Positions 28,296-43,922 of a stretch of DNA of 64,000 bases are shown one piece after another. Location: positions 1-64,000 of the forward strand of contig SIRW01000090.1 in assembly GCA_004366205.1 (NCBI GenBank). The letters run 5' to 3'. Position 1 is the first letter of the stretch. Every line of letters begins with the position of its first letter. Made by a program: the position numbers and the translations under genes. Source of the stretch: Actinomycetota bacterium. Lineage in GTDB: Bacteria > Actinomycetota > Acidimicrobiia > Acidimicrobiales > CADCSY01. The notes below the pieces were generated by a model that made no database searches, was not told the origin of the DNA, and worked only from the letters and a program-made list of their open reading frames with translations.

Positions 28296-29534
28296 TCAGT
28301 CCCGGTCGGCGGGTTCCCGGTTCCCGGGCGCGGCAGCCTTCGCCTCGTACATCCGGCTGTCGGCTCGCTGCAGCAGCGTCGAGGCCTGCTCCGGCGAGGT
28401 GGCCAGCGCCCACCCGATGCTGGCGGTGACCCGGGCGGCCACGCCGGGGACACCCACGAGGCTCGCGAGCTCGACCTCCTCGGCGATGGCCCCGCGGATG
28501 CGCCCGGCGATCACCTCGAGCTCCTCGGGGCCCTCGAGGCCCTCGCAGAGCACGGCGAACTCGTCGCCCCCGAGCCGGGCCACGGTGTCCTGGGCCCGGA
28601 CGGCTGCCCGGAGGCGGCGGGCCAGCACCACCAGCACGTGGTCGCCGGCGTGGTGCCCCCACGTGTCGTTCACGGCCTTGAACCCGTCGAGGTCGGCGAA
28701 CAGCAGCCCCAGCATGCCGCCCGAGCGGTCGAGACGGGCCGTCGCCAGGTCGAGGCGGTCCCGCAACAGGGCGCGGTTCGCCAGCCCGGTGAGGGGGTCG
28801 TGGAGCGCGAGGTGGGCCAGCCGGGCCTCGGCCTGGGCCCGCTCGATGGCGATGGCCGCCAGGTCGCGGGCCACGACCACCGCCTCCCGGTCGCCGAGCG
28901 TCGGGGGCTCGACGATCACCGAGCCGAGCCGGCGGGAGCCGTCGGCCGAGAGCACCGGGAGCACGCCCCGGCTGCGCTCGTCGCGGCCGGCGCCGTCGTG
29001 GTCGACGAGCACGGCGCAGCGCTCATTCGGCTCGAGCTCGTGCGCCACGAACCCCTCGATGGCCGACAGCGTCGTGGCGAGGGGCGCACCGGTCGCGATC
29101 ATCCGCAGGATCCGGGCCTGGCCGTCGACGCGGCGCTCGGCTCGCACCCGGTCGGTCACGTCTCGGATCGTGACGACGATGCCCTCCACCTCGGGGTCGT
29201 CGAGCAGGTTGTTGGCCACGGCCTCGACGTGGAGGTAGTGCCCGTCGCGGTGGCGGAGGCGGAAGGTGACGGGCTGCTCGGCCCGACCCGGGCGGGCGAC
29301 GACCTCGGCGAAGTACGACCAGGCGGCGTCGGCGTCGTCGGGGTGGATGAGCTCGGCGGCGTTGCGGCCGATCATCGTGCCGAACGGGTAGCCCAGCAGG
29401 TCCAGGCCCGACAGGGCCGAGTACCGGATCCGGCCGGACCCGTCGAGCACGGTGACGATGTCGTGGCTGTGACGACCCAGGATCAGGTGCCGCCGCGCCT
29501 CCTCGGCCACGTCGGCGCCTTCCACGTCGGGCAT
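28296..29534 (-). CDS. PAS-GGDEF diguanylate cyclase
   Basis: PAS core (HSHDIVTVLDGSGRIRYSALSG..LLGYPFGTMIG), RLGGDEFAVL GGDEF motif. Confidence 0.92.
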   Translation of the reverse strand: MPDVEGADVAEEARRHLILGRHSHDIVTVLDGSGRIRYSALSGLDLLGYPFGTMIGRNAAELIHPDDADAAWSYFAEVVARPGRAEQPVTFRLRHRDGHYLHVEAVANNLLDDPEVEGIVVTIRDVTDRVRAERRVDGQARILRMIATGAPLATTLSAIEGFVAHELEPNERCAVLVDHDGAGRDERSRGVLPVLSADGSRRLGSVIVEPPTLGDREAVVVARDLAAIAIERAQAEARLAHLALHDPLTGLANRALLRDRLDLATARLDRSGGMLGLLFADLDGFKAVNDTWGHHAGDHVLVVLARRLRAAVRAQDTVARLGGDEFAVLCEGLEGPEELEVIAGRIRGAIAEEVELASLVGVPGVAARVTASIGWALATSPEQASTLLQRADSRMYEAKAAAPGNREPADRD

Positions 29535-29637
29535 GGCCCGCGGCCGGTTCCGGAACGTGGGCGGCACGGGATCCCGCCCCTCCCCGCCGCGCCCCGCGTC
29601 AGCGGGACCGCCCGTCCGGCCGGCCGCCACGACGCCC

Positions 29638-32121
29638 ATGATGCCCCACGCCCCGCCCCGTTGCCGGGCGACGCCCACCGGTGGCTACCATGTCGCCGCG
29701 CTGCGGCCGGGCCGACCCGGAGCGCGCGGCCCACTCCATCCCCTGGAGGCCCTCCTGCTCGTCCTGGTCTCCCTGCACGCAGCTGCTGCCGTCGTCGCGC
29801 TGGCCCTCGGCCCGCGCCTGGGTCGGCGCGTCTTGTTGGTGTGCGGGCTCGCCCCGCTCGCCACGTCGATCTGGGCGGCGGCGCAGGCCCCCGGTGTCCT
29901 CGACGGCGCAGCCGTCACCCAGCGCGCCTCGTGGGTGCCGGCGCTCGGGGTCGAGGCCACGTTCCGGCTCGACGGCTTCGCCCTGCTCATGGTCGCCCTC
30001 GTCTCGGGCATCGGCACGCTGATCTTCGCCTACGCCGCCGCCTACTTCTCCGACCAGCCCCACCTGGGCCGGTTCGCGGCGACGCTCGTCGCCTTCGCGG
30101 GGTCGATGCTCGGCCTCGTCCTGGCCGACAACATCCTGCTGCTGTTCGTGTTCTGGGAGCTGACGTCGATCACGTCCTACCTGCTCATCGGCTTCGAGGA
30201 CACCAAGGGCCCCGCCCGCGCCGCCGCCCTCCAGGCGATGCTGATCACCGGTGGGGGCGGCCTCGCCCTGCTGGGCGGCCTCGTGCTCCTGGGCCAGGCG
30301 GCCGGGACCTTCGAGCTGTCGGAGATCCTCGCCGCCACCCCCGGTGGCACCGCGGTGGAGGTCGCGCTGGTGCTCGTGCTGCTCGGCGCCTTCACCAAGT
30401 CGGCCCAGGCGCCGTTCCACAGCTGGCTGCCGGGCGCCATGGCCGCACCCACCCCGGTGAGCGCGTACCTGCACTCCGCCACGATGGTGAAGGCGGGCGT
30501 GTACCTGATCGCCCGCATGGCGCCCGGGTTCGCCGAGACCGGGCTGTGGCGGCCGCTCGTGCTCACGGTCGGCGCCGCGACGATGCTGGTCGGTGGCTAC
30601 CGGGCGCTCCGCCAGCGCGACCTGAAGCTCCTGCTCGCCTACGGCACCGTCAGCCAGCTGGGGTTCATGGTCGTGCTGCTGGGCGCCGGCCGTCCCGACA
30701 CCACCTTCGCCGGCGCCGCCCTGCTGCTCGCCCACGGGGCGTTCAAGGCGGCGCTGTTCATGGTGGTGGGCGTCATCGACCATCAGGCCCACACGCGCGA
30801 CCTGCGGGAGCTCTCCGGGCTGGGCCGGCGGCTTCGGGGCCTGGCCGTGCTCTCGGTCGTGGCAGGCGCGTCGATGGCGGGCCTGCCGCCGCTGTTCGGG
30901 TTCATCGCCAAGGAGGCGGCCTTCGAGGGCCTCCTGCACCTCGAGCTGGGGACCGGCGGCACCCTCGTGATCGCCGCCGTCGTCGCCGGATCGGCGCTGA
31001 CGTTCGCCTACACCGCCCGCTTCCTCTGGGGTGCCTTCGCCACCAAGCCCGCCGCCACCGGCGAGGGGCTCACCGGCCCCGCCGTGCCCCGGCCGGCGTG
31101 GACGTTCGTGACGCCGGCCGCCCTGCTCGCCGCGCTCACCGCGGTCACGGGCCTGCTACCCGCTCCCCTCAACCCGCTCGTGGGCCAGGCCGGGGTGGCG
31201 CTCGACCCGACGCTCGACCCGCCGAACCTCTACCTCTGGCACGGGCTCAACACGGCGTTGCTGCTGTCGGCCGTCACCATGGCCGTGGGCACCACCTTGT
31301 TCCTGTTGCGCGACCGGATCGAGCGCTGGCAGGCGGGCGCGCCCGGCCTGCCGAGCGCCGAAGGCGGCTACAACGCCTCGGTGGCCGGCGTCATGCGCCT
31401 GGCGACCCGGGTCACCGCCGTTGTCCAGAACGGGTCGCTGCCCACGTACCTGACCGTCATCATCTTGACGATCCTGATCCTGCCCGGTGTGCCGCTCGCG
31501 GCCCGGGCGTCGCTGCCCGAGGGCCTCGTGTGGTGGGACCGCCCGCTCCAGGCGGGCGTGGCGGTGCTCGTCGTGGTGGCGGCCCTGGCCACGGCCGTCG
31601 CCCGCCGCCGCTTCGCCGCCGTGCTGTTCCTCGGCGCCGTGGGCTACGGGGTCGCCGTGCTGTTCGTGGTCCAGGGCGCGCCCGACCTGGCGCTCACCCA
31701 GTTCCTCGTCGAGACCCTGGCCGTGGTGCTGTTCGTGTTCGTGCTGCGCAGCCTGCCCGAGCGCTTCCACCACGTGCGCTGGCTGCCCGTCGACGCGAGC
31801 CGCGTCGCGGTGTCCGCCGCCGTCGGCGTGTTCGTCGCCGGCTTCGCGCTGCTCGCCGCCGCCGCCCGCACCGAGCCCAGCGTCTCGGCGGCGTACCTGG
31901 AGCAGTCGCTGCCGGAAGCTGGGGGCCGCAACGTCGTCAACGTGATCCTGGTCGACTTCCGGGCCCTCGACACGCTCGGCGAGATCACCGTGCTGGCCGT
32001 CGCCGCCGTCGGCATCGTGAGCCTGGTCGGCATCCGCCGGCGCCGGGGGCAGGCCGGGACCGGCACGCCCAGCGCCGTGCACCCTGGCCACGAGGGCGAG
32101 CGCGAGGAGGCCACCCGGTGA
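29638..32121 (+). CDS. mrpA: monovalent cation/H+ antiporter subunit A
   Basis: NuoL-like core (FHSWLPGAMAAPTPVSAYLHSATMVKAGVYL) plus DUF4040/MbhE-like C-terminus; start uncertain. Confidence 0.92.
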   Translation: MMPHAPPRCRATPTGGYHVAALRPGRPGARGPLHPLEALLLVLVSLHAAAAVVALALGPRLGRRVLLVCGLAPLATSIWAAAQAPGVLDGAAVTQRASWVPALGVEATFRLDGFALLMVALVSGIGTLIFAYAAAYFSDQPHLGRFAATLVAFAGSMLGLVLADNILLLFVFWELTSITSYLLIGFEDTKGPARAAALQAMLITGGGGLALLGGLVLLGQAAGTFELSEILAATPGGTAVEVALVLVLLGAFTKSAQAPFHSWLPGAMAAPTPVSAYLHSATMVKAGVYLIARMAPGFAETGLWRPLVLTVGAATMLVGGYRALRQRDLKLLLAYGTVSQLGFMVVLLGAGRPDTTFAGAALLLAHGAFKAALFMVVGVIDHQAHTRDLRELSGLGRRLRGLAVLSVVAGASMAGLPPLFGFIAKEAAFEGLLHLELGTGGTLVIAAVVAGSALTFAYTARFLWGAFATKPAATGEGLTGPAVPRPAWTFVTPAALLAALTAVTGLLPAPLNPLVGQAGVALDPTLDPPNLYLWHGLNTALLLSAVTMAVGTTLFLLRDRIERWQAGAPGLPSAEGGYNASVAGVMRLATRVTAVVQNGSLPTYLTVIILTILILPGVPLAARASLPEGLVWWDRPLQAGVAVLVVVAALATAVARRRFAAVLFLGAVGYGVAVLFVVQGAPDLALTQFLVETLAVVLFVFVLRSLPERFHHVRWLPVDASRVAVSAAVGVFVAGFALLAAAARTEPSVSAAYLEQSLPEAGGRNVVNVILVDFRALDTLGEITVLAVAAVGIVSLVGIRRRRGQAGTGTPSAVHPGHEGEREEATR

Positions 32122-32606
32122 GGCCCGAGGACCGCTCGCTGATCCTCGACACGTGCGTGCGCGCCGTGTTCCACACGATCCTGCTGCTGTCGCTCTACCT
32201 GCTGCTCTCCGGGCACAACCAGCCCGGCGGCGGGTTCGTGGGCGGCCTCGTGGCCGGCGCCGCCTTCGTGCTGCGGTACGTGGCGGGCGGCGCCGACGAG
32301 GTCCACCGCATGGCGCCGTTTCGCCCGCAGCTGCTGCTGGGCAGCGGGGTGGTGCTGGCCGCGCTCACCGGGGTCGGATCGTGGCTGGCGGGCGGTGAGC
32401 TCCTCGAGCACGGCAAGATCGACCTGCACCTCCCCGTGCTCGGGGATGTCCACGCGTCCTCCACCCTCGCGTTCGACATCGGCGTGTTCCTCGTCGTCGC
32501 CGGGCTGGTCCTCACCCTGCTCGAGAGCCTCGGCGACGTCGCCGAGACCGAGGAGCAGGCAGCCGCCGAGCGCGAGGCCGGCGCCGGAACCGGAGCGGCG
32601 CCGTGA
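32118..32606 (+). CDS. mrpB: Na+/H+ antiporter subunit B
   Basis: SGHNQPGGGFVGGLVAGAAFVLRYVA; GTG overlap. Confidence 0.93.
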   Translation: MRPEDRSLILDTCVRAVFHTILLLSLYLLLSGHNQPGGGFVGGLVAGAAFVLRYVAGGADEVHRMAPFRPQLLLGSGVVLAALTGVGSWLAGGELLEHGKIDLHLPVLGDVHASSTLAFDIGVFLVVAGLVLTLLESLGDVAETEEQAAAEREAGAGTGAAP

Positions 32607-33031
32607 TCCTCGTCCTCGCCATCGTGGTCGGCGTGCTCTACGCCGTCGGCACCTACCTGCTGCTGCAGCGCACGCTCACGCGCATCGTCATGGGGCTGGC
32701 CATGCTCGGCCACGGCGCCAACATCCTGCTGCTCATGTCGGGGGGTCGGGCGGGCCCGCCGCCGCTCATCGAGAACGGCCCGCCCGCGGGTGCCGCCGAC
32801 CCCCTCCCCCAGGCGATGGCCCTCACCGCCATCGTCATCACCTTCGGGATCATGGCGTTCCTGCTCGGCCTGGCGTACCGGAGCTGGCGGCTCACCCACG
32901 ACGACGAGGTCGAGGACGACCTCGAGGATCGCCGCATCGCCCGCCTGGCGACGGACCTCCGCCACGAGGAGGACCTCGACATCGCCCGCACGGTCTACGG
33001 CCGCGAGCACCTGGAGGAGGACCGGACGTGA
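32603..33031 (+). CDS. mrpC: Na+/H+ antiporter subunit C (NuoK-like)
   Basis: LGHGANILLLMSGG, DPLPQAMALTAIVITFGIMAF. Confidence 0.95.
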   Translation: MILVLAIVVGVLYAVGTYLLLQRTLTRIVMGLAMLGHGANILLLMSGGRAGPPPLIENGPPAGAADPLPQAMALTAIVITFGIMAFLLGLAYRSWRLTHDDEVEDDLEDRRIARLATDLRHEEDLDIARTVYGREHLEEDRT

Positions 33032-34578
33032 ACGTGCTCGTGCCGCTGCCGATCGTGCTGCCCCTCATCGGAGCCGGCCTGTGCATCGCCCTGCGGTCGC
33101 TCGCCGCCCAGCGGGTCGTCGCCGTGGCGGCCGTCACCGGGGCCCTCGGCGCGGCCGGTGCGGCGCTGGCGGGCGTCGAGCGGCACGGGCCCGTCGCCGT
33201 CGCCGTGGGCGGCTGGCCGGCGCCCCGGGGCATCGTGCTCGTCGGTGACCTGCTCGCCCTCCTGCTCCTCGTCGTGTCGCTGGCGACGGTGCTGGCGGTG
33301 CTCGTGTACGCCGTCGGCCAGCGGGGCACCGACGAGGCGTCGGGCTTCTTCCACCCGCTCTACCTGGTCCTGACCGCCGGTGTGGCGGCGTCGTTCCTCA
33401 CCGGCGACCTGTTCAACCTGTTCGTCGCCATCGAGGTCATGCTCTCGGCCAGCTACGTGCTGATCACCCTCGGCGGCCGGCGGTCCCAGGTGCGCTCGGG
33501 CATGACCTACGTGGTCATCAACCTGCTGGCCTCCACCGTGCTGGTCACGGTGATCGGGCTGATCTACGCGGCGACCGGCACCGTGAACATGGCCGACGCC
33601 GCCCTGCGGCTCGACGCCGTGCCCGACGCCGTGCGCACCTCGCTCGGTGTGCTGCTCCTGGTGACGTTCGGCATCAAGGCCGCCATCTTCCCGCTGTTCT
33701 TCTGGCTGCCCGACTCGTACCCGACGGCGCCCACCGCCGTGACCGCCGTGTTCGCCGGGTTGCTCACCAAGGTCGGCGTCTACACGATCATCCGGACCCA
33801 GGGCCTGCTGTTCCCCCACGACCGCGCCTCCACCCTGATCCTCGTGCTCGCCGGGCTGACCATGGTCGTGGGCGTGTTCGGCGCCATCGCCCAGGACGAC
33901 ATCAAGCGCATTCTGAGCTTCCACATCGTGTCGCAGATCGGCTACATGATCTTCGGGCTCGGGCTCTTCACCGTCGCCGGCCTGGCCGGCGCCATCTTCT
34001 TCGTCGCCCACCAGATACCCGTGAAGACGGCGCTGTTCCTCGTGGGAGGCATGGTTGAGACCGGCACCGGCACCTCGGCGCTCAACCGGCTCGGCGGCCT
34101 GATCCGCACCGCGCCCGCGGCGGCTGCCCTGTTCCTGCTCGGCGCGCTCAGCCTGGCGGGCCTGCCGCCGTTCTCGGGGTTCTTCGGCAAGCTCGCCCTG
34201 GTGCAGGCCGGGCTCGCCGCCGAGGCGTGGGTGATCACCGGTGTCAGCCTGTTCGTCAGCATCCTCACCCTGTTCTCGATGACGAAGATCTGGGCGGGCG
34301 CCTTCTGGGGCGAGCAGCGCGCCGAACCCGCCCCGGCGCCCCGGACCGCCGACGCCGCCGGCGCCGTCGCCACGACCGGTGGCGCCGCGGCTGCGCCCGA
34401 GGGCGGCCCCGGTGCGCTCCGGCCGATCCCCCGGCTGATGACCTGGGCAACGGCCGGGCTGGTCGGCGTCACGCTGTTCGTCGCCGTGGCGGCCCAGCCG
34501 ATCTACGAGCTCAGCGAGCGGGCGGCGGGCGAGCTGCTCGACCGCACGGCCTACCTCGAGGCGGTGCTCGAACAATGA
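33028..34578 (+). CDS. mrpD: Na+/H+ antiporter subunit D (NuoN-like)
   Basis: FGIKAAIFPLFFWLPDSYPTAPTAVTAVFAGLLTKVGVYTIIRT. Confidence 0.95.
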   Translation: MNVLVPLPIVLPLIGAGLCIALRSLAAQRVVAVAAVTGALGAAGAALAGVERHGPVAVAVGGWPAPRGIVLVGDLLALLLLVVSLATVLAVLVYAVGQRGTDEASGFFHPLYLVLTAGVAASFLTGDLFNLFVAIEVMLSASYVLITLGGRRSQVRSGMTYVVINLLASTVLVTVIGLIYAATGTVNMADAALRLDAVPDAVRTSLGVLLLVTFGIKAAIFPLFFWLPDSYPTAPTAVTAVFAGLLTKVGVYTIIRTQGLLFPHDRASTLILVLAGLTMVVGVFGAIAQDDIKRILSFHIVSQIGYMIFGLGLFTVAGLAGAIFFVAHQIPVKTALFLVGGMVETGTGTSALNRLGGLIRTAPAAAALFLLGALSLAGLPPFSGFFGKLALVQAGLAAEAWVITGVSLFVSILTLFSMTKIWAGAFWGEQRAEPAPAPRTADAAGAVATTGGAAAAPEGGPGALRPIPRLMTWATAGLVGVTLFVAVAAQPIYELSERAAGELLDRTAYLEAVLEQ

Positions 34579-35111
34579 GGCGGCGGCTTCGGATCGGGCT
34601 CGTGCTGTGGCTGCTCGTCGTGTGGCTGGGGCTGTGGGAGGACGTGCGCCCCGCTGCGGTCCTCGGCGGGCTCGCCGTCGCCGTCCTGCTCGTGCTGGTG
34701 TTCCCCAGCCGCGCACCGCGGACCGACACCGGTCGCTTCCGGCCCCTCGCCGCGCTCGGGCTCCTCGCCTACTTCCTCTGGAAGCTGGTGCAGTCGAACC
34801 TCGTCGTGGCGTGGGAGGTGCTCACCCCCGGGGAGGGCATCAACGAAGGCGTCGTCGCCGTGCCGATCGTCAGCGCGTCCGACGCGGTCATCACCGTGCT
34901 GGCCAACGCCATCTCGCTCACGCCCGGAACGCTCACCCTCGACATCGACCGAGGGCCGACGACCGTGCTGTACGTCCACGTCCTGCACCTGCGCTCGATC
35001 GAGGAGGTGCGCCGCGACGTGCTCGTCCTCGAGCGCTACGTGCTGCGGGCCATCGGCACGCCCGAGGGTGTCGCCGCCGTCGACCGAGTCCTCGCCGAGG
35101 GGGTGGCGTGA
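34575..35111 (+). CDS. mrpE: Na+/H+ antiporter subunit E
   Basis: ANAISLTPGTLTLDIDRGPTTVLYVHVLHLRS. Confidence 0.93.
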   Translation: MRRRLRIGLVLWLLVVWLGLWEDVRPAAVLGGLAVAVLLVLVFPSRAPRTDTGRFRPLAALGLLAYFLWKLVQSNLVVAWEVLTPGEGINEGVVAVPIVSASDAVITVLANAISLTPGTLTLDIDRGPTTVLYVHVLHLRSIEEVRRDVLVLERYVLRAIGTPEGVAAVDRVLAEGVA

Positions 35112-35374
35112 TGGAGACCGTCGCCACGATCTGCTTCGTGATGCTGGGCATCGCCGCCCTGCTGTTCCTGGTGCGGCTGCTGCGGGGCCCGTCGCTCGCC
35201 GACCGGCTGGTCGCCCTCGAGTCGATCACGCTCATGGTGGTCATCGGCATCGGCGTGTACACCGCCGCCCTCGGCGGCGGCTACTTCCTGAACGTGCTCG
35301 TCACCGCGGCGATCGTGGGCTTCGTGGCCGCCCTCACGGTGTCGCGCTTCATCGAGCGGCGAGGTGCCCGGTGA
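35111..35374 (+). CDS. mrpF: Na+/H+ antiporter subunit F
   Basis: RLLRGPSLADRLVALESITLMVV; position in operon. Confidence 0.92.
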   Translation: METVATICFVMLGIAALLFLVRLLRGPSLADRLVALESITLMVVIGIGVYTAALGGGYFLNVLVTAAIVGFVAALTVSRFIERRGAR

Positions 35375-35736
35375 ACAGCGCCACCGACTGGATCGCCGCC
35401 GTCCTGCTGCTGGGCGGCTGCGGGTTCGCCCTCGTCGCCGGGATCGGCCTGCAGCGGTTCCCCGACGTGTTCGCCCGCATGCACGCGGCCACCAAGGCCG
35501 TGACCCTCGGCCTGGTGATGGTGCTGCTCGGCGCGGCGCTCCAGGTCGACTTCATCGGCGATGCCGCCAAGCTGCTGCTCGTCGCCGCCCTGCAGTTCAT
35601 CACCGCGCCGGTCGCCGCCCACATGATCGGCCGGGCCGCGTACCGCTCCGGCACCGAGCTCAGCCCGGCCACCAGCGTCGACGAGCTCGCCGAGGTCCGC
35701 CGCCACCAAGGCGGCGGCGGCCCGCCACCTTCCTGA
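35371..35736 (+). CDS. mrpG: Na+/H+ antiporter subunit G
   Basis: GIGLQRFPDVFARMHAATKAVTLGL. Confidence 0.93.
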   Translation: MNSATDWIAAVLLLGGCGFALVAGIGLQRFPDVFARMHAATKAVTLGLVMVLLGAALQVDFIGDAAKLLLVAALQFITAPVAAHMIGRAAYRSGTELSPATSVDELAEVRRHQGGGGPPPS

Positions 35737-35790: not shown

Positions 35791-36041
35791 CACGGAAGGT
35801 CACGGTCACGCTCGACGAAGACCAGGTTCACCAGATCCGCGCCCTCGTCGCCGCCGGCACCGCCGCGAGCATCTCCGGGTTCGTCCAGCACGCCGTAGCG
35901 GTCGCGCTCGACGATGTGGCGGGATGGGGCGCCATGCTCGCCAAGGCCCTGCAGGAGACGGGCGGGCCGCTCACCGACGACGAGCGCGCCTGGGCCGACC
36001 GGTTGCTCGCCGCCCCCGCCGATCAGCACCCAGCCGCCTGA
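35784..36041 (+). CDS. ribbon-helix-helix (CopG-like) antitoxin
   Basis: MATRKVTVTLDEDQVHQIRALVAAGTAASISGFVQHAVAVALDD; overlaps the PIN gene (TGATG). Confidence 0.8.
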   Translation: MATRKVTVTLDEDQVHQIRALVAAGTAASISGFVQHAVAVALDDVAGWGAMLAKALQETGGPLTDDERAWADRLLAAPADQHPAA

Positions 36042-36418
36042 TGGCGGGCGTGACGCTCGATGCCGGCGCGCTGATCGCCATCGACCGCAACCACCGACGC
36101 ATGGTGGCGCTTCTTGCCCGGGCGGCCGAGACGAAGGCACCGGTGACGGTGCCGGCGTCGGCGCTCGCCCAAGCGATCAGGCGTCCGGAGCGGCAGGTGC
36201 GGCTCGCCCGGCTGATCCGACAGCCGGCCACCTCCGTTCGAGCGCTCGATCGGGTCGATGCGACCAGCATCGGACGCCTGCTCGCTGCGAGCGGATCGAC
36301 GGACGTGGTCGACGCCCACGTGGTGATCTGCGCTCGACGTGCTGGCCAGCGCGTCGTCACGTCCGATCCGGACGACCTCCGCGCACTCGATCCAGAGCTC
36401 GATCTGACGACCATCTGA
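36041..36418 (+). CDS. PIN domain toxin (VapC-like)
   Basis: VTLDAGALIAIDRN, DATSIGRLLAASGSTDVVDAHVVICAR, VVTSDPDDLRAL. Confidence 0.85.
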   Translation: MAGVTLDAGALIAIDRNHRRMVALLARAAETKAPVTVPASALAQAIRRPERQVRLARLIRQPATSVRALDRVDATSIGRLLAASGSTDVVDAHVVICARRAGQRVVTSDPDDLRALDPELDLTTI

Positions 36419-36470: not shown

Positions 36471-37946
36471 TCACCCGTCGAGCACGAGCGTGGCGATGGG
36501 ATCGAGGACGTGGTCGACGATGGCGACGTTGGCGAGGCCGAGCACCAGGAGCCCCACGGCGAGCACGAGGACGGGCGTGAGGATGCCGGCGCCGGCCTCG
36601 GTTGCCTTGGCGACGGCGGGGTCGGGCTCGGGGATCACGTGCACCTGCTCGAAGACGCGCAGGAAGTAGCCGAGGGTGAGCAGGCTGCTCACGACGATGA
36701 CAGCGGCGAGCAGCCACTGGTCCGCCTCGAGGCTGCCGAGCACCAGGTACCACTTGCTGAAGAACCCCGCCGTCGGGGGCACGCCGATCATCGACAGGGT
36801 GGCGACGGTGAACCCGGCCATCGTCCAGGGCATGCGCCGGCCGAGGCCCGCGAACCGCCTGATCGACTTCACCCCGGCCTGCTGGATGACGCCGCCGGCC
36901 ACGAAGAACAGGCACGCCTTCATGAAGGCGTGGTTCACCACGTGCAGCAGCGCGCCGGCGAGCGCCAGCGGCGTGGCCAGCCCGATGCCGAGGCCGATGT
37001 AGCCGATCTGGGCGACGGTGCTGTAGGCGAGCAGCCGCTTGAAGTCGTCCTGGCGGATCGCCATCACCGAGCCGAACACGACCCCGGCCGCCCCGAACCA
37101 AGTGATGATCGTCATGATCGGCAGGTCGGCGAGCACGACCTCGATGCCGAACACGGTGAGCAGCACCCGGATGAGCGCGTAGGCCGCCACCTTCACCTGG
37201 ATGGCGGCGAGCAGGGCGGCGACGGCGGGCGGTGCGTGGCTGTGGGCGTCCGGCAGCCACACGTGCAGCGGGAACAGCGCCATCTTGATGCCGAGCGCGA
37301 CGGTGATCAGCACGGCCGCGGCGACGACCGTCGGCGAGCCGGCGATGGGCGGGAGGCGCTCGGCGGCGTCGGCCATGTTGAGCGTGCCGGTCGTGAAGTA
37401 CACGAACCCGACGCCGAGCAGGTAGAAGCCCCCGCCGATCGTGGCGAACAGCAGGTACCGGAAGCTGGCGAGCGCCGCCTTCGGTCCGCCGAGGGCGACG
37501 AGCCCGTAGGTCGCGAGGGCGTAGACCTCGAGGAACACGAACAGGTTGAACAGGTCGCCGGTCATCGCCACGCCGAACAGGCCGGTGAGCAGCAGCAGGG
37601 TCAGCGCGTGCACGGGCACGGCGCGCACGGGCTCCTCGCCGTAGCCGGCACGCGGCGGGTAGAGCACGACGAGCAGGCCGATGAAGGCGATCACCACCGC
37701 CAGGAACGCCGAGAGAGGGTCGAGCACGAACTCGATGCCGATCGGCGGCGCCCACCCCCCCACGTGGTGGCGGACGCCGCCGTCGTCGAGCACGTGCACC
37801 AGCGCGACGGCAGCGACCGCCGTGGCGGCGGCGGTGGCGACGAGAGCGACCGCCCGGGCCGCCGCCGGGCGCCACAGCCCGCCGAGCGCCGCCAGCATGG
37901 CGGCGGTCAGCATGCCCGCGGGGAGGAGGATCGGGAGGTCGTCCAC
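36471..37946 (-). CDS. MrpD/MbhH-type proton-translocating antiporter-like subunit (second system, D1)
   Basis: GIKMALFPLHVWLPDAHSHAPPAVAALLAAIQVKVAAYALIRV, RQDDFKRLLAYSTVAQIGYIGLGIG. Confidence 0.92.
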   Translation of the reverse strand: MDDLPILLPAGMLTAAMLAALGGLWRPAAARAVALVATAAATAVAAVALVHVLDDGGVRHHVGGWAPPIGIEFVLDPLSAFLAVVIAFIGLLVVLYPPRAGYGEEPVRAVPVHALTLLLLTGLFGVAMTGDLFNLFVFLEVYALATYGLVALGGPKAALASFRYLLFATIGGGFYLLGVGFVYFTTGTLNMADAAERLPPIAGSPTVVAAAVLITVALGIKMALFPLHVWLPDAHSHAPPAVAALLAAIQVKVAAYALIRVLLTVFGIEVVLADLPIMTIITWFGAAGVVFGSVMAIRQDDFKRLLAYSTVAQIGYIGLGIGLATPLALAGALLHVVNHAFMKACLFFVAGGVIQQAGVKSIRRFAGLGRRMPWTMAGFTVATLSMIGVPPTAGFFSKWYLVLGSLEADQWLLAAVIVVSSLLTLGYFLRVFEQVHVIPEPDPAVAKATEAGAGILTPVLVLAVGLLVLGLANVAIVDHVLDPIATLVLDG

Positions 37947-38315
37947 CTAGGTGTCCATCCGGCGGGCCAGCTCCTCCTCGTCGAGGGTGCCGTGCGTGCG
38001 GTGGATGGAGACGAGCAGGGCGAGCGCGACGCCCTTCACGGCGACGGTGACGACGATGGCGGTGAGGATGAGCAGGTGCGGGAGCGGGTTCATGTACGCC
38101 GCGGCCTCGACGCCGATCTCGGGGTCGATCACCGGCACGGTGCCGTCGGCCTTGACGCTGCCCTCGATGAAGAAGATGAACACGGCGGTGTTGAAGATGG
38201 CGAGCCCGATGAGCTTCTGCACGAGGTTGCGCTCGACGAGCACAGCGGTGAGCCCGACGGCGAGCAGGGCGACGACCAGCAGGTAGACGTAGCGGGCCTC
38301 GACGAGCTCGAGCAC
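37947..38315 (-). CDS. MrpC/MbhG-type subunit (NuoK-like), second system
   Basis: VERNLVQKLIGLAIFNTAVFIFFIEGS, NPLPHLLILTAIVVTVAVKGVALALL. Confidence 0.9.
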   Translation of the reverse strand: MLELVEARYVYLLVVALLAVGLTAVLVERNLVQKLIGLAIFNTAVFIFFIEGSVKADGTVPVIDPEIGVEAAAYMNPLPHLLILTAIVVTVAVKGVALALLVSIHRTHGTLDEEELARRMDT

Positions 38316-38749
38316 TACAGCCTCCGGCCCACGAGCGAGTCGAAGATCCACAGCAGGGCCCCGAACACGGCGAGGCCGATGGCCACCTCGGCGACGAGGA
38401 TGCCCAGGTAGCGGAGCCGGCTGGGTTCGAGGTCGGTCCCGGGGACGGCCGCGTAGTCGAGGAACGCGCCGCCGGTGACGAGCGGCAGCAGGCCCAGGGC
38501 CACGAAGGCGAACATCCCGACGAGCATGGCGACGGGCCCCACGAGCAGCGGGAAGCGGCGGTAGCTCTCCTCCTCGCCGACGGTGATGCGCAGCAGGGCG
38601 ACGCCGACGGTGAGGATGACGCCACCGGCGAACCCGCCGCCGGGCCCGTAGTGGCCGTGGGCGATCACGTAGATGCCGAACACGAGCACGAACGGCACGA
38701 AGAGCGAGCCGATGACCCGAACGACGACGCTGTCGTGGTGGCCGATCAC
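38315..38749 (-). CDS. MrpB/MbhF-type subunit, second system
   Basis: FGIYVIAHGHYGPGGGFAGGVILTVGVALLRI. Confidence 0.9.
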   Translation of the reverse strand: MIGHHDSVVVRVIGSLFVPFVLVFGIYVIAHGHYGPGGGFAGGVILTVGVALLRITVGEEESYRRFPLLVGPVAMLVGMFAFVALGLLPLVTGGAFLDYAAVPGTDLEPSRLRYLGILVAEVAIGLAVFGALLWIFDSLVGRRL

Positions 38750-39279
38750 GACTCGGGCCTCCGGCGGGCGAGCACCACGACGACGGCCAGCGCCGCGGTC
38801 ACGACGACGAGGGTCTCGCCCAGCGTGTCGAGCGAGCGGTAGTCGGCGAGCACGGCGGTGACGACGTTGGGCGTCTCGGTGTCGGCGAGCGACCGCTCCA
38901 GGTAGTAGGGCGCGACGTGCTGGTGGGCGGGGGCGTCGGGGTCGCCCCGGTCGGGCAGGTCGCTGCTGGCGAACAGCATGAGCAGCACGAAGGCGCCGAC
39001 CAGCGGGAAGGCGACCCACGCGGCGCGGCGGCTCATGCCTTCGCCGGCCCGGCCGGTGACCGTGACGGCCGCCAGCAGCACGACGCCGACGAACGCCGAT
39101 CCGAGCACGGTCTCGACGAAGGCCACGTCGACCGCGCCCATCCCGGCGAAGAGCAGGGCGGCGAAGAGGCTGAACACGGCGAGCATGGCCACGGTCGCGA
39201 CGAGGTCGCGGATCTTCACCGCCAGCACGGCGCTGGCCAGCAGGGCGACGAGCAGGAGGAGGTCGACCTGCCAGATCAC
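38746..39279 (-). CDS. MbhD/MbhE-type subunit (DUF4040 plus MrpA C-terminal-like), second system
   Basis: KIRDLVATVAMLAVFSLFAALLFAGMGAVDVAFVETVLG; VVTAVLADYRSLDTLGETLVVVTAALAV matches the MrpA C-terminal pattern. Confidence 0.88.
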   Translation of the reverse strand: MIWQVDLLLLVALLASAVLAVKIRDLVATVAMLAVFSLFAALLFAGMGAVDVAFVETVLGSAFVGVVLLAAVTVTGRAGEGMSRRAAWVAFPLVGAFVLLMLFASSDLPDRGDPDAPAHQHVAPYYLERSLADTETPNVVTAVLADYRSLDTLGETLVVVTAALAVVVVLARRRPES

Positions 39280-39578
39280 GGCGGGGTCTCCGAGAGCGGG
39301 CGGTGCCCGGACCGCATGGCAGCCCGGGCCACGGCGTGCATGGCGGTGGCGTTGGCGATCAGGGCGAAGAAGGCGATGAACAGCAGGCGGGGCGTTGCGG
39401 CGGCCAGTCCGTGGTGCACGGCCAAGCCGAGGACGACGAGGAACAGCCCGAGGGTCTCGGACTTGGCCACGGCGTGGGCCCGGGTGAAGAAGTCGGGAAG
39501 GCGGATCGACCCGATGGCGCTCACGGTGAGGAAGGCGGTGCCCACCACGAGCAGACCGGCGGCGACGGCGGTGCTCAC
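39276..39578 (-). CDS. MrpG-type subunit, second system
   Basis: IGSIRLPDFFTRAHAVAKSETLGLFLVVLGL. Confidence 0.9.
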   Translation of the reverse strand: MSTAVAAGLLVVGTAFLTVSAIGSIRLPDFFTRAHAVAKSETLGLFLVVLGLAVHHGLAAATPRLLFIAFFALIANATAMHAVARAAMRSGHRPLSETPP

Positions 39579-39841
39579 TCCCCGCCCTCCTCCTCAAGGT
39601 GCTTGGCGAAGGCGACCGGGAACAGGAACGCCAAGAGCGCGTAGGCCAGGGCCAGGTCGACGAACATGTCGACCCGGTCATAGACGAGCCCGAGCACGAG
39701 CAGCAGCACCACGCTGTTGGCGGCGGCCAGGGCGACGCCGAGGAGGCGGTCGGGCGTGGTCGGCCCGATGGCGGCCCGGGAGAGGGCGACCAGCACGAGG
39801 ACGGCGATGACGGCCGCCACGGCGACGAGCAGCGTGGTCAC
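39575..39841 (-). CDS. MrpF-type subunit, second system
   Basis: AIGPTTPDRLLGVALAAANSVVLLLVLG. Confidence 0.88.
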   Translation of the reverse strand: MTTLLVAVAAVIAVLVLVALSRAAIGPTTPDRLLGVALAAANSVVLLLVLGLVYDRVDMFVDLALAYALLAFLFPVAFAKHLEEEGGE

Positions 39842-40413
39842 CCGGGGGCCTCCTCGGTGCCCTCCTCGGGGGCCTCGATGACGACCGGCGTGCCGGGTTC
39901 TTCGAGGAAGATGGCGCCGACCCGCCGGAACAGCGTGCCGTTGAGCACGTCGGCGCCCGCGCGGGGCGAGAACATGTGGAAGGTGAACACGTCGTCCTCG
40001 ACGTCGATGGTGACCGTGCCGGGGATGAGCGTGATGGTGTTGGCGGCGATGGTCCGGGCGATCGGGCTCTTGAGCCCCACCCGCACCCGGGCCGAGGTCG
40101 GCTCGATGGGCATGGTGGGGCTGAGCACGACGACGGCGATCTGCACGCTGGCGGCGACGATCCGGGTGATGAGCCAACCCAGGTAGGCCACGGCGTTCCA
40201 CGCGCAGCGCGGCAGGCGCCGGACCGGGATGGCGGCGGGGTGCATCACGCCGGTGGTCATGTCGAGGGTCAGCGCGGTCGACACGGCCGCCGCCATGACG
40301 CCCATGGCGACGAACAACGGGTCGGTCCGCCCGGAGAGCAGGAGCCAGAACCCCAACAGCGCGAGGAACTGGAGGGGGATGGCGGTGGGGTGGCGGACGT
40401 CGGGGGACCTCAC
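39838..40413 (-). CDS. MrpE-type subunit, second system
   Basis: AANTITLIPGTVTIDVEDDVFTFHMFSPRAG. Confidence 0.9.
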   Translation of the reverse strand: MRSPDVRHPTAIPLQFLALLGFWLLLSGRTDPLFVAMGVMAAAVSTALTLDMTTGVMHPAAIPVRRLPRCAWNAVAYLGWLITRIVAASVQIAVVVLSPTMPIEPTSARVRVGLKSPIARTIAANTITLIPGTVTIDVEDDVFTFHMFSPRAGADVLNGTLFRRVGAIFLEEPGTPVVIEAPEEGTEEAPG

Positions 40414-42107
40414 GGCAGCAGGCTCACGGTCAGGGTGGCGACGAAGGTCCCCAGCACGACGGCGCCGAGCACCCACGTCGGGGTGAGGCCGCGGGGGGCG
40501 GCCGCACCGGAGCCGGTGCGGGCAACCCGTCGCCGCTCGGGCAGCGCCCGGAGCCGCTCGACCACCTGCCGCCAGCCGGCGGGCTCGGCGCCGATCCGGC
40601 GCCGGGGAGCCAGGCGGGCGAGGCGGGGCGGCAGGTCCCGGTAGAACCAGTCGGTGTCAACGGTGACCACGGCCTTCCCGGCCAGGTGCGGGCGCAGCAG
40701 CCAGAACCCGACGGCGGTGAAGGCGAGCAGGTTCACGGCGTCGGTGACCCGGGCGAGCGTGTAGGGCTCGAACACCACCTCGTGGGGCAGGTGGTCGTAC
40801 AGCAGCGGCCCGGGGGCGAGGCCGATGGCGACGTTGATGCCGGCGAGGACGATCATGGCGACGTACATGCTGGTGGGCAAAGCCCGGACGGGCACATCGG
40901 GCCCGGCGGGCCGCGGTCCGAACCACGTGTAGTACGGGAGCTTGAGCGCGGTCGACAGGAACGTGCCGATCGACGCCAGCTTCAGCAGCCACACGACCGC
41001 CTGGTAGTCGGCCTCGTAGGCGGCGTGCACCACCATCTCCTTGCTGGGGAAGCCGCTCAGCAGGGGCACGCCCGAGATCGAGAACGCCGCGACCACATAG
41101 ACGGCGAGCACCACGGGCATGGCCCGCGCCAGACCACCCAGGTCGGTGAGCCGGCTGCGACCCGTGGCCTGCAGCACCGCGCCGGTGCCCATCAGCAGCA
41201 GCCCTTTGTAGAGGATGTGGGCGAAGGCGTGGGCCGTGGCGGCGTTCACGGCCGTCTCGGTGCCGATGCCAATGGCGGCCACCATGAAGCCGACCTGGCT
41301 GACGATGTGGTACGCCAGCAGCCGCCGGATGTCGTTCTGCATCATGGCGTAGACGACGCCGTAGAGGGCCATGGCGACGCCGGCCCACACGAGCAGCTCG
41401 GTGCCCGGGAACCCGCGGGCCAGCGCGTAGACGGCCGCCTTGGTGGTGAAGGCGCTCAGGAACACGGTGCCCGCCACCGTGGCCTCGGGGTAGGAGTCGG
41501 CCAGCCAGCTGTGCAGCGGCGGCACGGCGGCGGTCAGCACGAACCCGACGAGGACGAGCGCCGCCGCCCCGCCCATCTCGAAGGCTCCGAAGGTCAGCGA
41601 GCCCGTGCCGGCGTACCACCAGAGGATCCCGCCGAGCAGGACGATGCCGCCGGTGAGGTGCACGAAGAGGTAGCGGGTGCCGGCGCTCTGCGACCGGGCG
41701 GTGCCCCGGGCCCAGATCAGCACGACCGAGGTGACCACCTTGAGCTCCCAGAACACGAAGAGCGTGAGCAGGTCGCCCGCGTAGACGATGCCGAGGGCGC
41801 TGCCGGCGTAGAGCAGGCCGGCGACCTGCTGGGCCGGGTCGGTGATGCGCAGGCCGAAGACGGCGAACAGGATCGCCGCCAGGGCGAACACGTAGGCGAA
41901 GGCCTGGGACAGGCGGTCGACGCGCAGGGGCTCGAGCTCGAGGCCGTAGAACGTCCAGGTGACGGACGTCCCGGGCTCGACCTGCCACACGGCCACCGCC
42001 GCGAGCAGCGGCACAGCGACGAAGCTCGCGGCCCGCAGGCGCGCCGGGGCCACGGCGACCACGAGGGCGCCGGCCAGGAGCACGACCGCCGGCGTCAGCT
42101 CAGGCAC
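40410..42107 (-). CDS. NuoL/M/N-like antiporter subunit (second system, D2)
   Basis: VPPLHSWLADSYPEATVAGTVFLSAFTTKAAVYALARGF, MMQNDIRRLLAYHIVSQVGFMVAAIG. Confidence 0.9.
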   Translation of the reverse strand: MPELTPAVVLLAGALVVAVAPARLRAASFVAVPLLAAVAVWQVEPGTSVTWTFYGLELEPLRVDRLSQAFAYVFALAAILFAVFGLRITDPAQQVAGLLYAGSALGIVYAGDLLTLFVFWELKVVTSVVLIWARGTARSQSAGTRYLFVHLTGGIVLLGGILWWYAGTGSLTFGAFEMGGAAALVLVGFVLTAAVPPLHSWLADSYPEATVAGTVFLSAFTTKAAVYALARGFPGTELLVWAGVAMALYGVVYAMMQNDIRRLLAYHIVSQVGFMVAAIGIGTETAVNAATAHAFAHILYKGLLLMGTGAVLQATGRSRLTDLGGLARAMPVVLAVYVVAAFSISGVPLLSGFPSKEMVVHAAYEADYQAVVWLLKLASIGTFLSTALKLPYYTWFGPRPAGPDVPVRALPTSMYVAMIVLAGINVAIGLAPGPLLYDHLPHEVVFEPYTLARVTDAVNLLAFTAVGFWLLRPHLAGKAVVTVDTDWFYRDLPPRLARLAPRRRIGAEPAGWRQVVERLRALPERRRVARTGSGAAAPRGLTPTWVLGAVVLGTFVATLTVSLLP

Positions 42108-42372
42108 GACCCTCGTCCCCTCGGCCCGCAGCCGGTTCGACGCCCGCGGCGGCGGTTCCCGCCCGAGCGGAGGCACCGGCGGGCGGCTCGGGGTCGGACC
42201 GGGTCAGACCGAGCCGTCCGAACACCTTGCCGACCATGGCGTAGGCGGCGCAGCCCACCAACCCGAACACCGGGATGACACCCGGCAGGCTCACCCCCGT
42301 GACCAGCCACTCGAACAGGCCGGCGCCGGCGAGAGCGGCCACGACGAGGCCGGCGACCGCGGCGCGGCTCAC
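42100..42372 (-). CDS. small two-TM membrane protein embedded in second Mrp-like operon
   Basis: Two hydrophobic segments; overlaps both neighbours (4 bp and 8 bp), implying translational coupling. Confidence 0.7.
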   Translation of the reverse strand: MSRAAVAGLVVAALAGAGLFEWLVTGVSLPGVIPVFGLVGCAAYAMVGKVFGRLGLTRSDPEPPAGASARAGTAAAGVEPAAGRGDEGRA

Positions 42373-43922
42373 CGCCCGCCTCCGGTGACGGCCGCGGCGA
42401 CGGCGTCGGCCAGGGTGCCCACGCCGAACAGGTCGCCGAACCCGAGCAGCAGCGCGAGGAGGGCCGTCACCGCCAACGGGACGACGAGCAGCGGGCGGGC
42501 CTCGCGCTCGGGGAACTCGAGGTGCCCGTGGTGGTCGTGGTCACCCGAGTCGTGGCCGGCCCCGTGCCCGTTTCCGGGCAGGGCCATGGCTTCGAGGGGC
42601 TTCCGGTAAAAGGCGCGCACCACGATCGGCAGCAGGTAGCCGGCGGTCAGCAGGCCGCTGCCCAGCAGCACGGCGGCGAACGCCCACTCGCCGGCGTCGA
42701 TGGCGCCCGCGCCCAGGAACCACTTGCTCACGAACCCGCCCACCGGCGGCACCCCGGCCAGGCCGAGCGAGGCCACGGCGAAGGCCGCCATGGTCACCGG
42801 CATCCTCCGGCCCACGCCGTCGAGCTGGCTCACGTGGTCGAGGTGGGCGTGAGCGTGGAGGGTCCCGGCGCAGAAGAACAGGGTGATCTTCAGTGCGGCG
42901 TGGTTCGTGATGTGCAGGAACGCTCCCGCCCAGGCGTCGGGCGCGACGAGGCACAGGCCCAGCACGATGATCGACAGGTGGGCGACGGTCGAGTAGGCCA
43001 GCCGCCGCTTGAGGTTGTCCTGCCGGAACGCCAGCAGCGACGCCACCACGATCGTGACGGCGGCGAAGGTGGCCAGCACGGTGGCGGCACCGACGTCGAC
43101 CAGGGTCTCGGGCCCGATCACCCAGCCGATGGCCCGGGCGAATCCGAACACGCCGGCCTTCACGACGGCGACGGCGTGGAGCAGGGCGCTGACGGGGGTC
43201 GGCGCCACCATGGCCGAGGGCAGCCAGCCGTGCAGGGGCATCACCGCCCCCTTGGTGCCGAACGCCAGAGCGAAGAGCAGCGCCAGCCCGACGATCGCCG
43301 GCGAGCTGACCTCACCGGCGAGGAAGCCGCCAGGGGTGAAGTCGTGCCCGGGTGCGAGCGCCTGCACGGCCGCGGTGGCGAAGAGGAGGGCCACCCCGCC
43401 GCCGAGCAGGTAGCCGAGGTACTTGCGCCCGGCGGCGCGCGCCTCGTCGGTCTCGGCGTGGGCGACCAGGAAGTAGGTGGCGGCGGTGAGCAGCTCGTAG
43501 AAGACGAAGAACGTGACGAGGTTGGCGGCGAGCGCGAGCCCGATCGTCGCCGACAGGCACAGGGCGAAGGACGCGAAGTAGCGGGTCTGGCGGCGCTCGT
43601 CGAGGCTGCGCACGTAGCCGATCGAGTACACCGACGTGATCAGCCAGAGCACGCTGGCGGACAGGGCGAACACCATGCCGGCGGCATCGGCGCGCAGCGC
43701 CAGGTCCACGCCCGCCACGATCGGGAAGAGGGTGACCTCGGGCTCGTCGCCGTCGAGCACGGGTCCGAGCAGCGCCAGGACGACCGCGAGCTTCACCAGG
43801 GCGGCGAGCAGCGTCCAGCCCTCGCGCAGGTTCGGCCAGCGGCGGGAGAGGCCGATGAGCACCGCGGCCACGGGCGACACCACCACGGCCACGACCAGCA
43901 GCGTCGAGGGGGTGAGGGGCAT
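42369..43922 (-). CDS. NuoL/M/N-like antiporter subunit (second system, D3) with His-rich insertion
   Basis: FGTKGAVMPLHGWLPSAMVAPTPVSALLHAVAVVKAGVFGFAR; GNGHGAGHDSGDHDHHGHLEFPE near C-terminus. Confidence 0.9.
   Translation of the reverse strand: MPLTPSTLLVVAVVVSPVAAVLIGLSRRWPNLREGWTLLAALVKLAVVLALLGPVLDGDEPEVTLFPIVAGVDLALRADAAGMVFALSASVLWLITSVYSIGYVRSLDERRQTRYFASFALCLSATIGLALAANLVTFFVFYELLTAATYFLVAHAETDEARAAGRKYLGYLLGGGVALLFATAAVQALAPGHDFTPGGFLAGEVSSPAIVGLALLFALAFGTKGAVMPLHGWLPSAMVAPTPVSALLHAVAVVKAGVFGFARAIGWVIGPETLVDVGAATVLATFAAVTIVVASLLAFRQDNLKRRLAYSTVAHLSIIVLGLCLVAPDAWAGAFLHITNHAALKITLFFCAGTLHAHAHLDHVSQLDGVGRRMPVTMAAFAVASLGLAGVPPVGGFVSKWFLGAGAIDAGEWAFAAVLLGSGLLTAGYLLPIVVRAFYRKPLEAMALPGNGHGAGHDSGDHDHHGHLEFPEREARPLLVVPLAVTALLALLLGFGDLFGVGTLADAVAAAVTGGGR

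Follow-up and report, generated by a model that had tools for sequence, protein, structure and literature searches.

The ten-gene block and its surroundings

The window analysed here, a stretch of 64,000 nucleotides from an actinobacterial genome, carries on its minus strand a block of ten open reading frames (43922-36471), which in reading direction encode D3, s, D2, MrpE, MrpF, MrpG, DE, MrpB, MrpC and D1 (Table 1). All frames are intact and none of the ten genes contains an internal stop. Along the block the junctions overlap by 4, 8, 4, 4, 4, 4, 4 and 1 bp, and C directly abuts D1 (0 bp). Because neighbouring genes overlap or abut, the ten genes very likely form a single operon, read as one transcript with coupled translation. 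A scan for promoters and terminators gave no signal beyond chance.

Table 1. Genes of the ten-gene block and the adjoining canonical mrp operon (positions within the window).
Feature	Position	Strand	Description
D3	42369..43922	-	antiporter-like subunit, 517 aa; own clade
s	42100..42372	-	small two-helix membrane protein, 90 aa; between D3 and D2
D2	40410..42107	-	antiporter-like subunit, 565 aa; NF009310/PRK12668, 636 bits (cut-off 564)
MrpE	39838..40413	-	PF01899 (MNHE)
MrpF	39575..39841	-	PF04066 (MrpF_PhaF)
MrpG	39276..39578	-	PF03334 (PhaG_MnhG)
DE	38746..39279	-	MbhD+MbhE fusion (DUF4040); NF009159 above cut-off
MrpB (MnhB/MbhF)	38315..38749	-	PF04039
MrpC (NuoK/MbhG-like)	37947..38315	-	Oxidored_q2
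D1	36471..37946	-	MrpD/MbhH-type antiporter subunit, 491 aa
canonical mrp operon	29533..35736	+	full-length MrpA, then B, C, D, E, F, G

Three separate antiporter-like subunits, as claimed in the initial annotation, are indeed present: D1, D2 and D3 all match the Pfam family Proton_antipo_M (220, 155 and 181 bits, respectively). The five genes mrpB, C, E, F and G have Pfam matches above the cut-off (MnhB in the case of MrpB), DE matches both MbhD and MbhE, and these assignments bear out the proposed Mbh-like order E-F-G-DE-B-C-D1. Also in agreement with that annotation, the block contains no full-length MrpA, and none of its three antiporter-like frames is fused to MbhD/E.

The cation module (C, DE, B, E, F, G) is complete, and all of its genes match Mrp families. 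DE matches the D and E subunits of MBS and MBH as well as the C-terminal part of MrpA, of which it is the counterpart; residues D152 and E156 of its DTLGE motif are kept. MrpC has neither of the two His residues aligned with the cation-cavity His of Anoxybacillus MrpC, so that the cation site may differ.

The canonical mrpA-G operon lies convergent to the block at a distance of 0.7 kb, and its full-length MrpA comprises Proton_antipo_M, MbhD and MbhE. It is separate from the ten-gene complex; the initial annotation had left it unlinked to the block. Between both operons (35820-36418, plus strand) a small ORF precedes an ORF with a weak PIN-domain match (22.9 bits, slightly below the cut-off); the two may be a VapBC-type pair. 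In the genome, antiporter genes were found in the window (five) and in two nuo clusters, which lie side by side on one other contig and contain three each, namely L, M and N.

Antiporter-like subunits and the small protein s

The phylogeny suggested as a check in the initial annotation placed D1, D2 and D3 in one clade each (support 100/99 or more), apart from MrpA and MrpD of the neighbouring operon. D2 stands beside MbsH' (94/87) and next to MrpA/NuoL (85/74), D1 groups weakly with MbhH and MbsH/NuoN (75/87) and D3 stands alone. The closest solved structures agree with the tree placement of D1 (MbhH, MrpD) and D2 (MbsH', MrpA); for D3 they form a mixed list. The AlphaFold model of D2 reached a pLDDT of 82.7, with residues 500-555 below 50, and therefore the long lateral helix of NuoL and MrpA is not confidently seen. 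In a Foldseek search with this model, proteins of MrpA, MrpD and NuoL type scored similarly, so that the search cannot separate the MrpA type from the MrpD type.

The paper on the Mrp structure describes the lysines of TM7 and TM12 as essential and absolutely conserved, and pairs the TM7 Lys with the Glu of TM5 (PMC7419157). The proton-channel residues, which the initial annotation had singled out, are complete in D1 and D3: both contain Glu TM5, Lys TM7 and Lys TM12, D3 additionally Lys TM8, and the three shared residues are kept in essentially every relative. Lys TM7 is present in 51/51 D1 sequences, in 92/92 D3 sequences and in all 78 NuoM, NuoN and canonical MrpD sequences from the same loci (221/221 in total). 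D2, on the other hand, lacks it in all 99 sequences compared (the window and about 98 relatives), though it keeps Glu TM5, Lys TM8 (one Arg) and Lys TM12. At the TM7 site the complex I class has Asn, as do nearly all Mrp loci having the D3-s-D2 block last; the window has Thr, and the remaining block-first loci have Ser or Gly. A misalignment is unlikely, since the neighbouring P-L-H-x-W-L motif anchors the alignment. TM13 of D2 also contains a lysine, which was rejected as a substitute for Lys TM7 since other subunits often have Lys or Arg near this position.

D2 shows that antiporter-like subunits lacking Lys TM7 occur naturally, in many phyla and in two different complexes; it may be either proton-translocating or a passive end piece. 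With its family one can directly test whether proton pumping in the Mrp/complex I superfamily strictly depends on this lysine.

The protein s has no family match in Pfam or NCBIfam. It is encoded beside D2 in 79 of the best 80 loci, the exception being a locus that starts inside D2, and it is common to Mrp and complex I clusters. Although highly divergent (13-33% identity to s of the window), its relatives share a Lys, residue 49 in the window, in 92 of 94 sequences; both exceptions, one of them a second copy in locus L074, have Thr. Both L074 (about 12146) and L104 (about 7809) carry a second s-D2 pair immediately downstream of the first pair. In L040 and L041, D3 and D2 are divergent and the intervening small protein, which has a long acidic linker, shows no match to s. 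The model of s has helices at 3-26 and 32-56 (pTM 0.36, only the helices being trustworthy). K49 is located 18 residues into the second helix and, according to this model, probably nearer to one membrane face than to the membrane middle.

One could imagine that s supplies this second-helix Lys in trans for the lost TM7 Lys of D2, which would give a split proton channel common to Group 3 Mrp and green complex I. We rate this idea low because K49 is probably off mid-membrane. A search for natural fusions of s with D2 or D3, meant as a basis for modelling how they touch, found none. The protein s merits its own protein family. Both the D2 without TM7 Lys and the conserved s are apparently undescribed: our limited literature search yielded no description of either, and no priority is claimed.

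Distribution and gene order of related loci

At E <= 1e-100, D2 was detected in 17 of the 299 genomes of the phylum. In the window's own family it occurs in 1 of 12 genomes, the other 11 being without D2. A scan with one genome per species gave at least 600 stretches, of which 594 encode D2 relatives. For comparison we used the best 80 of these at least 594 relatives, which are the top-scoring ones and not a random sample, together with the loci of the phylum. The best 80 loci belong to Actinomycetota, Chloroflexota, Pseudomonadota, Desulfobacterota, Acidobacteriota, Planctomycetota, Gemmatimonadota, Bacteroidota, Verrucomicrobiota, Spirochaetota and archaea, among others.

Sorted by gene order, the resulting 96 D2 neighbourhoods do not bear out the initial description of the operon as atypical. 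The ten-gene order of the window is found in 13 loci besides the window, all of them actinobacterial, and a block-swapped order, E-F-G-DE-B-C-D1-D3-s-D2, in 36 loci of many phyla, archaea included (minor variants and cut parts counted). With gene content and order conserved across so many phyla, the block is not due to chance. Redox genes are absent among the ten in both orders. In 31 loci D3-s-D2 is followed by NuoM/NuoN-like genes, and the remaining 16 show cut or other arrangements around D2. Upstream genes were checked in two loci of the NuoM/N class, L075 (NuoF, NuoH, a ferredoxin-like protein of NuoI type and NuoK) and L061 (NuoJ and NuoK). Beyond rhizobia, D3-s-D2 with NuoM/N-like genes was seen in Desulfobacterota, Planctomycetota, Acidobacteriota and Verrucomicrobiota; loci of this kind include L060-L065, L067, L069, L070, L075, L079-L081, L083 and L087, among others.

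In a tree of D3 and D2 computed by a quick method, the 14 loci with the window's order (window included) form one clade (support 100 by this method), which is nested among loci of the other Mrp order. Because of this placement, the window's order would be explained most simply by a single block move within Actinomycetota. The complex I contexts are strongly clustered on the same tree and do not form a single clade; they require three changes.

Function of the ten-gene operon and comparison with known systems

Our preferred reading, to which we assign a probability of roughly 0.78, is a stand-alone Group 3 Mrp-type cation/proton antiporter, in which D3-s-D2 extends the chain of antiporter-like subunits. 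By definition, Group 3 Mrp systems have no mrpA and only mrpD, which can occur in several copies (PMC8415708, PMC5703873), and their gene order is irregular (PMC5703873). The operon shows all of this: mrpB, C, E, F and G are present, mrpA is missing, several genes are mrpD-like and the order is irregular. The full-length MrpA of Groups 1 and 2 is confined to the neighbouring operon. Against the antiporter reading count the D2 without Lys TM7, the MrpC without either cation-cavity His and the occurrence of the D3-s-D2 triplet inside a redox complex elsewhere.

The initial annotation had also considered that the operon might supply the membrane arm to a redox complex encoded at another site. The corresponding pump would be redox-driven, like MBH, MBS or green complex I, and would have its peripheral-arm genes elsewhere in the genome. 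The gene order E-F-G-DE-B-C-D1 matches MBH, D2 stands with MbsH' (MBS complex) in the tree, and nuoM/nuoN-like genes follow the triplet in about 30 loci, with nuo genes upstream in both that were checked, so that for other organisms the suggestion finds backing in complex I clusters. Such a pump, however, requires a NuoH/MbhM anchor. The operon has no PF00146 gene and the only two in the genome, like the only two of NuoD type (PF00346), lie inside the two nuo clusters. The proposed genome-wide search for orphan NuoB/D-like or NiFe subunits led only to these clusters and to two NiFe large subunits with their small subunits, one group 1-like and one group 3-like; they account for the further PF01058 and PF00374 matches, and the extra NuoB-like genes, considered as the missing arm, proved to be the hydrogenase small subunits. 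The NiFe large subunit with NuoH/MbhM anchor typical of an Mbh-type Group 4 hydrogenase is not encoded by the operon, and neither a Group 4 hydrogenase nor a spare anchor was found in the 119 contigs of the genome. Furthermore, no conserved ten-gene block carries a redox gene. A missing redox gene is conceivable because the assembly consists of 119 contigs, and we consider a redox-driven pump unlikely. As no redox arm was found, the stand-alone antiporter is the best reading, in line with the free-standing multi-pump antiporter that the initial annotation had offered.

Alternatively, the operon might encode two units, a seven-gene Mrp (E-F-G-DE-B-C-D1) resembling that of P. furiosus and a separate proton-conducting D3-s-D2 unit. 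The seven-gene form does stand alone in P. furiosus (PMC8415708) and the triplet is mobile as a block, being first or last in Mrp operons or within nuo clusters. Yet in Mrp operons and nuo clusters alike it is found with a chain of antiporter-like subunits, green complex I contains it as the replacement of NuoL in a single complex (PMC9040806), and the overlaps of 4-8 bp also speak for one unit, which makes this alternative improbable. A decayed or redundant duplicate of the neighbouring canonical Mrp, as might be suspected from the complete MrpA-G operon next door and the absence of D2 from the rest of the family, is contradicted by the intact frames and the separate, fully supported clades of D1, D2 and D3, and is very improbable.

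For the Group 3 antiporter we infer one complex. By analogy with the solved structures of Mrp and MBH, D1 is predicted to lie next to the cation module (C, DE, B, E, F, G). The missing antiporter domain of MrpA would be replaced by D3, s and D2, which would lengthen the chain of antiporter-like membrane subunits from two to three. Inward flow of H+ through this chain would drive the exchanged ion, probably sodium or potassium, outward. In the Mrp structure, 2 H+ per Na+ are explained by two coupled antiporter-like subunits (PMC7419157); with translocation by all three subunits the number could rise from 2 to as many as 3 H+ per cation, which would favour extrusion against a steep gradient. Neither biochemistry nor an assay of the ten-gene form was found in the literature.

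MBH and MBS of P. furiosus (6cfw, 6u8y) contain homologues of D1 (MbhH/MbsH), D2 (MbsH'), C, DE and B, but they possess in addition a hydrogenase or sulfane-reductase module and a NuoH-type anchor, both of which the ten-gene operon lacks. Green complex I of rhizobia and others has two MrpD-like subunits in place of NuoL (PMC9040806), which are homologous to D3 and D2 and have s between them. There the triplet is part of an NADH-type redox complex, whereas here it is combined with mrp instead of nuo genes and no redox module, and both nuo clusters of the genome have their own NuoL.

The Group 3 Mrp of 'Ca. Nitrospira alkalitolerans' is described with two further NuoM/NuoL-like genes, interpreted as MrpA/D-like (PMC7784846). 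In that description the extra subunits follow mrpD and no small gene between them is mentioned, whereas in the ten-gene operon they come first and enclose s. The stand-alone Mrp of P. furiosus, mrpEFGBB'CD (PMC8415708), shares with our operon the lack of mrpA, the order E-F-G-(MbhD+E fusion)-B-C-D and the absence of redox genes, but has one antiporter-like subunit instead of three plus s. The initial annotation had asked whether a described Mrp class has the same gene set and order, and Group 3 largely corresponds to this. The ten-gene operon is another member of this known and very widespread class.
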